Shown here in pieces: positions 1-1,069 of a stretch of 35,707 nucleotides of DNA. The translations under genes and the position numbers were made by a program. The notes under the pieces were generated by a model that made no database searches, was not told the DNA's origin, and worked only from the letters and a program-made list of their open reading frames with translations. Every line of letters begins with the position of its first letter. Within the stretch, counting starts at the first letter, position 1. This stretch comes from Erysipelotrichaceae bacterium RD49. GTDB lineage: Bacteria; Bacillota_I; Bacilli_A; Erysipelotrichales; Erysipelotrichaceae. Location: positions 1-35,707 of the forward strand of contig JADGIS010000006.1 in the NCBI GenBank assembly GCA_015233825.1. Reading direction: 5' to 3'.

Positions 1-106
1 TAGTATGTGCAAGTTTGACAATTTCGTCCTCTGGATCTAAAACCTCCATAACTGAGGCTTCCTGGGTAAAAAGGTTGAGCTGTGGGAACAAATTCTTACG
101 GTACAT
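1..106 (-). mobile_element. Transposase N-terminus (IS5/IS1182-like), truncated by the window edge
   Basis: Seen: reading leftwards from an ATG at 106, 35 codons stay open to the window edge, preceded by an AGGAGA ribosome binding site 7 bases upstream. The protein starts MYRKNLFPQLNLF and contains LDPEDEIVKLAHT. Known: many IS5/IS1182-group transposases begin MYRK...F and carry an N-terminal DUF772-type segment of the form LDP(D/E)...(V/I)(K/R)LA...IDW. I infer the first residues of such a transposase, whose DDE core lies outside the window. A contig edge inside a multicopy IS is typical of short-read assemblies. No terminal inverted repeat can be assigned. A different helix-rich protein with a similar start is possible. 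Confidence 0.6.
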
Positions 107-125
107 GAGCGGCTTCTCCTGAAAA

Positions 126-168
126 AAGTGCAGGGAAATTAGAAGAAATCCCAATTTTCCTTGCACTT
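126..168. repeat. Imperfect inverted repeat upstream of the transposase
   Basis: AAGTGCAGGGAAATT (126-140) is matched by the near-complement AATTTTCCTTGCACTT (153-168), with one offset base and a 12-base loop. It lies 20 bases upstream of the transposase start. It may be a hairpin limiting read-through into the transposase, or part of the element's end. Neither is shown by sequence alone. Confidence 0.45.
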
Positions 169-197
169 AATCACAGCACAAAAATAAGAAATTTACT

Positions 198-215
198 TTA
201 AAAAACGTTTTTTAA
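198..215. repeat. Perfect 18-bp A/T palindrome
   Basis: TTAAAAAACGTTTTTTAA is its own reverse complement. It lies between the SDR stop codon and the transposase promoter region. It could be a binding site for a dimeric protein, a weak bidirectional terminator element or part of an IS end. No function can be assigned from sequence. Confidence 0.5.
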
Positions 216-268
216 TTAATCAGCAAATACTATTTAAAAGTTAGTCTTCGAAAAAATGAATGCGGATT

Positions 269-1069
269 TTATGGACGCAGGCCCATGCCGCCTTCTAAAG
301 TAATGGTTTCTCCTGTCATATATTTAAAGTCCGGACCAGCGATCTGTACGCATACCCGGCCGATATCGGCAATGACATCCCCATAGTGGCCAATCGGAGG
401 CATTTTGACGTTTTGCTTGAAGGCATCTGGATAAGCCGTTTCGAAGTTTTCTAACTGCGAAGTCCAGGCCAATGGACAGATGATGTTCACGTTGATATTG
501 TCTTTGGCCCATTCCGTTGCGGCCACGCGGCTTAAGCCCCGGATGCCTTCTTTGGCTGCTGCATAGGCACACTGCCCGAAGTTGCCAAACAAGCCGGCGC
601 CGGAAGCAAAGTTAATGACGGAGCCCTGGCTTTCCTTTAAAGCGGGATAGCAGGTCTGCATATAATAAAAAGCTGCATACAAGCCGGAATATACGGCTAA
701 GTTAAACTGGTCGGTTGTATGGTCAACAAGGGTCACGCCTGATGCGGAAGCCTGGGCGTTGTTGATCAGTACATCAATCCGGCCAAATTTGGCCAGCGTT
801 TTATCGACAACCATTTTCGCGGTGGCTGCATTGTCAGCGCCAGCGTTGATATCCGCTTGAACAGGCAGAACCTGGATGCCGTACAGTTCTTCGAGTTCTG
901 CTTTGGCCTCTTCTAATTTTTTAACGTTGCGGCCTGTGATCACCAGATTTGCCCCTTCTTTGGCAAAGCAATGCGCAATGCCATACCCGATGGCTCCTGG
1001 TGCCCCGTTTTTTAACGTCGCTTTTCCGCCGCCAGTAATGATGGCCACTTTATTGTCGTACATTCCCAT
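269..1069 (-). CDS. Short-chain dehydrogenase, candidate NADP-dependent 12-alpha-hydroxysteroid dehydrogenase
   Basis: A 266-residue SDR oxidoreductase. The start at 1069 (MGMYDNKVAI) is chosen because an AAGGAG box lies 10 bases upstream; a longer reading frame to 1108 only adds an Arg/Lys-rich stretch across that box. Seen: Gly-rich cofactor loop (residues 12-30), TGR at 45-47 after the second strand, where an Arg usually favours NADP, NNAQASASG at 103-111, catalytic Ser156, Tyr169 and Lys173, and the C-terminal LEGGMGLRP. From memory, the NNAQASASG, YSGLYA.FYYM, NFASGAGLFGN and QLENF blocks closely match the clostridial NADP-dependent 12-alpha-HSDH that oxidises the 12-hydroxyl of cholate or deoxycholate. 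Odd: about nine extra residues (TLKNGAPGA area) sit inside the cofactor loop. The SDR fold is near certain; the bile-acid substrate is inferred. Confidence 0.8.
   Translation of the reverse strand: MGMYDNKVAIITGGGKATLKNGAPGAIGYGIAHCFAKEGANLVITGRNVKKLEEAKAELEELYGIQVLPVQADINAGADNAATAKMVVDKTLAKFGRIDVLINNAQASASGVTLVDHTTDQFNLAVYSGLYAAFYYMQTCYPALKESQGSVINFASGAGLFGNFGQCAYAAAKEGIRGLSRVAATEWAKDNINVNIICPLAWTSQLENFETAYPDAFKQNVKMPPIGHYGDVIADIGRVCVQIAGPDFKYMTGETITLEGGMGLRP

Follow-up and report, generated by a model that had tools for sequence, protein, structure and literature searches.

The window is the whole stretch of DNA that was analysed, with a length of 35,707 nucleotides, and it corresponds to contig C275 in its entirety; the assembly that includes this contig has a size of 2.97 Mb. 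The genome belongs to the same genus as Allobaculum mucilyticum. The features discussed in this work lie at the start of the contig and are listed below.

1..231, strand not assigned: terminal part of a repeated element, located at the contig edge; a copy lies at C113:1-232, and the last ~110 bp are also present at C82:161-270
2..106, minus strand: 35 initial codons of an ORF that runs off the contig, a candidate transposase with no family match
269..1069, minus strand: predicted NADP(H)-dependent bile-acid 12alpha-hydroxysteroid dehydrogenase (12alpha-HSDH) gene, 266 aa, SDR superfamily (from the ORF, Pfam, alignments, and tree)
551..604, minus strand: catalytic SDR triad Ser156, Tyr169, and Lys173 (codons 156-173; from the sequence and family alignments)
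683..688, minus strand: Ser-Gly (codons 128-129) in place of the canonical SDR tetrad Asn (from the alignment, with an uncertainty of one residue)
992..1024, minus strand: extended nucleotide-binding loop KATLKNGAPGA, between TGGG and IGYG (codons 16-26; from the alignment and codon arithmetic on the ORF)

The gene and its conserved motifs

The minus-strand frame that contains the HSDH gene is open at its longest from 1108 to 269. A good Shine-Dalgarno sequence, AGAAGGAG, precedes the ATG at 1069 at proper spacing, and 1069..269 (266 aa) is therefore the best gene call. This call agrees exactly with the gene at 269-1069 that had been proposed in a sequence-only reading of this DNA. The 266-aa protein matches the Pfam families adh_short_C2 (E 7e-41) and adh_short (E 3e-36). 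No 12alpha-HSDH model of NCBIfam fires on the protein, and the best matches there are generic SDR models far below their cut-off. The protein exhibits the Rossmann fold, the Gly-rich TGxxx loop, the YxxxK motif, and the Ser of classical SDRs, and its Ser156, Tyr169, and Lys173 are invariant in the family alignments. The tetrad Asn is replaced by Ser128/Gly129. This Asn is absent throughout the 12alpha family, including the proteins of C. scindens and C. hylemonae, and also from PDB 7wbc, so its absence does not disqualify the protein.

The window protein carries all four family blocks (NNAQASASG, SGLYxxFYYM, NFASGAGLFG, and QLENF), which are found in 87, 85, 88, and 86 of the 88 family members, respectively. 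In a set of 32 other SDRs, a single sequence (L007, a 63% relative) accounts for all occurrences, with two of the four blocks. The blocks are thus almost never found outside the family, as the sequence-only reading had supposed when it called them family-specific.

The loop from TGGG to IG consists of 11 residues in the window protein versus 2 in generic SDRs, a difference of nine. Of the 98 high-scoring rows, among which a few genomes are represented twice, 95 have a loop of 11 or 12 residues, C. scindens included, and a loop of 4 residues is present in two rows of the C. hylemonae type. The extra residues noticed earlier, about nine in number, are therefore real, but they are the norm in this clade and not a special trait of this protein. 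The nine-residue extension was also considered as the mark of a distinct enzyme class and was rejected, as the C. scindens protein has the same loop; for the same reason the long loop marks no new activity. Structural modelling of the loop had been suggested as a check. In the AlphaFold model of the window protein (pLDDT 86, pTM 0.89), the loop connects strand 1 to helix A, beside the expected position of the cofactor, and is modelled with good confidence (block pLDDT 93).

Relationship to characterised 12alpha-HSDHs

BaiE was used as a species tag to find reference genomes for the 12alpha assignment. The BaiE query was verified against PDB, where it matched 4leh, 4l8p, and 4l8o. BaiE was found in five of the 397 Lachnospiraceae genomes searched. 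In the printed alignments, the translated BaiE of genome G367 is the chain of 4leh and that of genome G130 is the chain of 4l8o, and we take these two structures to be from C. scindens and C. hylemonae, respectively. The C. scindens genome has a single close relative of the window protein (L115), which is 76% identical over all 266 residues. The C. hylemonae genome also has a single close relative (L117), which is 68% identical. The next SDR in either genome is only about 31% identical to the window protein. Since L115 and L117 are the only close SDRs in those genomes, they are very probably the assayed enzymes EDS06338.1 (C. scindens ATCC 35704; PMC8096331) and EEG75500.1.

The C. scindens protein has the same 11-residue loop, motif blocks, and triad as the window protein, but its host is a Lachnospiraceae genome with the bai operon whereas the host of the window protein is a member of Erysipelotrichaceae. 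The C. hylemonae protein has the same blocks and the same C-terminal LEGGMG.RP, but its loop consists of 4 residues instead of 11. The nearest structure, both by sequence and by fold, is PDB 7wbc, which is entitled hydroxysteroid dehydrogenase and is 38% identical (Foldseek); it was solved with NAD+ and has a short standard loop in contrast to the long loop of the window protein. A provisional comparison gives 67% identity between the window protein and the 12alpha-HSDH of Clostridium sp. ATCC 29733 (ERJ00208.1); it is taken as a lead and not as evidence.

The maximum-likelihood tree included SDR paralogues from the same genomes. In this tree, the nearest neighbours of the window protein are its counterparts in Allobaculum mucilyticum and Ileibacterium valens (SH-aLRT 95), and this group nests in a long-loop clade that holds the C. 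scindens protein (SH-aLRT 96). The sister of the long-loop clade is a C. hylemonae/Extibacter-like pair (SH-aLRT 96 for the join). The end branches of the outgroup are long, which leaves the deeper order unsure and does not affect the inner placement of the window protein. A tree of 90 rows, with the long branch L008 as its root, split in an uninformative way, and the tree with paralogues was used instead. The sequence comparison and phylogeny that had been suggested as a further check thus place the window protein inside the clade of C. scindens and C. hylemonae proteins, and the other SDRs of the same genomes outside it. This placement and the identities of 76% and 68% to the relatives in the BaiE-tagged genomes uphold the earlier assignment of the gene as a 12alpha-HSDH.

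In published work, bile-acid 12alpha-HSDHs were characterised from C. scindens, C. hylemonae, and P. hiranonis, and those of C. scindens and C. hylemonae were grouped apart from the 7alpha, 7beta, 3alpha, and 12beta classes (PMC8096331, PMC8204491). A gene for an NADP(H)-dependent 12alpha-HSDH is also retained in Extibacter muris, near kin of C. hylemonae (PMC7781625). A bile-acid HSDH acting at another position or in another orientation (7alpha, 3alpha, or 12beta) would share the superfamily and a similar overall fold. However, the remaining SDRs detected in the genomes of C. scindens and C. hylemonae, among them that of the bai operon, are only ~26-33% identical to the window protein and fall outside the clade, and the 12beta, 7alpha, and 3alpha enzymes form separate groups in published trees (PMC8096331), which makes such an enzyme extremely improbable here.

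Two relatives of BaiE with 56-57% identity were also observed, L113 (genome G040) and L114 (genome G340). G040 is Sporofaciens musculi, the genome of locus L083, and it has a 12alpha-HSDH orthologue; G340 does not.

Predicted function, distribution, and electron balance

The product of the gene is most probably a clostridial-type bile-acid 12alpha-hydroxysteroid dehydrogenase of the SDR superfamily, with a probability of about 0.9. It would be a new, unexceptional addition to a family that is known from C. scindens and is present in hundreds of other gut microbes. Tyr169 would act as the general acid/base, assisted by Lys173 and Ser156, and hydride would be transferred between NADP(H) and the steroid C12, interconverting cholate or deoxycholate with their 12-oxo forms. 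Arginines for NADP(H) are described in the 7alpha-HSDH of C. absonum (PMC4785404). We infer that Lys16 and Arg47 correspond to these arginines. NADP(H) would be the expected cofactor because the two residues appear to occupy those places.

The family is very widespread, where at least 550 genome contigs encode confirmed relatives, including those of Treponema, Coriobacteriia, and rumen/hindgut bacteria. Comparing this number to two published surveys, which listed 12alpha-HSDH in 39 of 693 genomes (PMC6521386) and 386 12alpha-HSDH genes (PMC11748489), the family looks wider than those surveys list. Such a spread, and the difficulty of predicting SDR substrate specificity from sequence (PMC7996314), would also suit a dehydrogenase of the same clade that in this lineage acts on another steroid or a non-bile hydroxy compound. 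However, the window protein sits inside the clade of the C. scindens and C. hylemonae types and retains the family blocks, QLENF and SGLYAAFYYM among them, and its genome has two CBAH (BSH-family) genes, although the BSH label is not specific since the CBAH family also includes penicillin V amidases. Another substrate is therefore considered unlikely.

The likely role of the predicted 12alpha-HSDH would be bile-acid detoxification via 12-oxidation after deconjugation, or the use of 12-oxo bile acids as an electron sink. Within the window, no bile-acid genes adjoin the HSDH gene. In five of 80 relatives, the HSDH homologue is immediately adjacent to, and on the same strand as, an NfnAB-like pair (NADH-dependent ferredoxin:NADP oxidoreductase type), and no common neighbourhood of the family was found beyond these five cases.

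L060:5825-8096: HSDH homologue and NfnAB-like pair, HSDH first
L068:5834-8202: HSDH homologue and NfnAB-like pair, HSDH first
L084:1992-4239: HSDH homologue and NfnAB-like pair, HSDH first
L095:5825-7991: HSDH homologue and NfnAB-like pair, HSDH first
L090:292-2527: HSDH homologue and NfnAB-like pair, HSDH last

These cases fall on three branches of the tree by parsimony and exhibit two gene orders. In the window genome, an NfnB homologue is located away from the HSDH gene. The adjacency in these relatives may point to a coupling of bile-acid redox to NADPH/ferredoxin balance, which would agree with the reductant model of E. lenta (PMC7996314). Tentatively, the 12alpha-HSDH of this clade might be tied to electron bifurcation, with bile acids as electron donor or sink via NADPH, although we regard this as doubtful.

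Allobaculum is a common rodent gut genus, and no report of a 12alpha-HSDH gene in Allobaculum was found in the literature searched. The gene therefore makes Allobaculum a further candidate for C12 chemistry in mouse models. Abundant oxo-bile acids of faeces include the 12-oxo forms, and oxidation at C12 lowers the toxicity of bile acids to gut bacteria (PMC7996314).

The contig end and the chromosomal surroundings

The HSDH gene lies ~13 kb from rpoA. The genes on the side away from the contig end encode a response regulator, a tRNA pseudouridine synthase, an ABC exporter pair, and ECF-type transporter components, and the rpoA-secY-ribosomal protein cluster is on the same side. This side is a chromosomal core region, and the contig is chromosomal, as rpoA, secY, and ribosomal protein genes are located on it. 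The neighbours of the HSDH gene differ in A. mucilyticum, and thus the gene location is not conserved within the genus.

On the other side, bases 1-230 are a repeat. Contig C113 begins with a copy of it (97%), and its last ~110 bp recur in contig C82 (94%). The repeat ends ~38 bp downstream of the HSDH stop codon. Only the first 35-55 residues of the ORF at the contig edge remain (2..106 or 2..166). This ORF has no Pfam match. A search of its own genome, 58 related genomes, and the plasmid collection found only its own two copies. The repeat fits the end of a mobile element, plausibly that of an IS. The IS with a probable transposase that was proposed in the sequence-only reading is thus weakly supported, and the 35-55-residue ORF fragment is at most a candidate transposase.

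The mobility that had been suggested as possible for the HSDH gene is not supported, since the contig is chromosomal and the adjoining repeat is only a fragment at its end. The gene could be read as cargo acquired recently with a composite transposon or with the neighbouring IS, given the short distance from the stop codon to the repeat end, the different neighbours in A. mucilyticum, and the spread of the family over several phyla. Against this, a single repeat end is seen, at the contig edge; the other flank consists of the ABC exporter pair, the ECF transporter genes, and the ribosomal protein/rpoA cluster; and in the tree the protein clusters with its homologues from the same genus and family. 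Recent cargo is accordingly judged very unlikely.

The last part of the repeat, at 122-231, is a 110-bp repeat with a hairpin (AAGTGCAGGGAAATT...AATTTTCCTTGCACTT), and its copy in C82 has unique flanks on both sides. This 110-bp repeat is possibly a MITE or an IS end.
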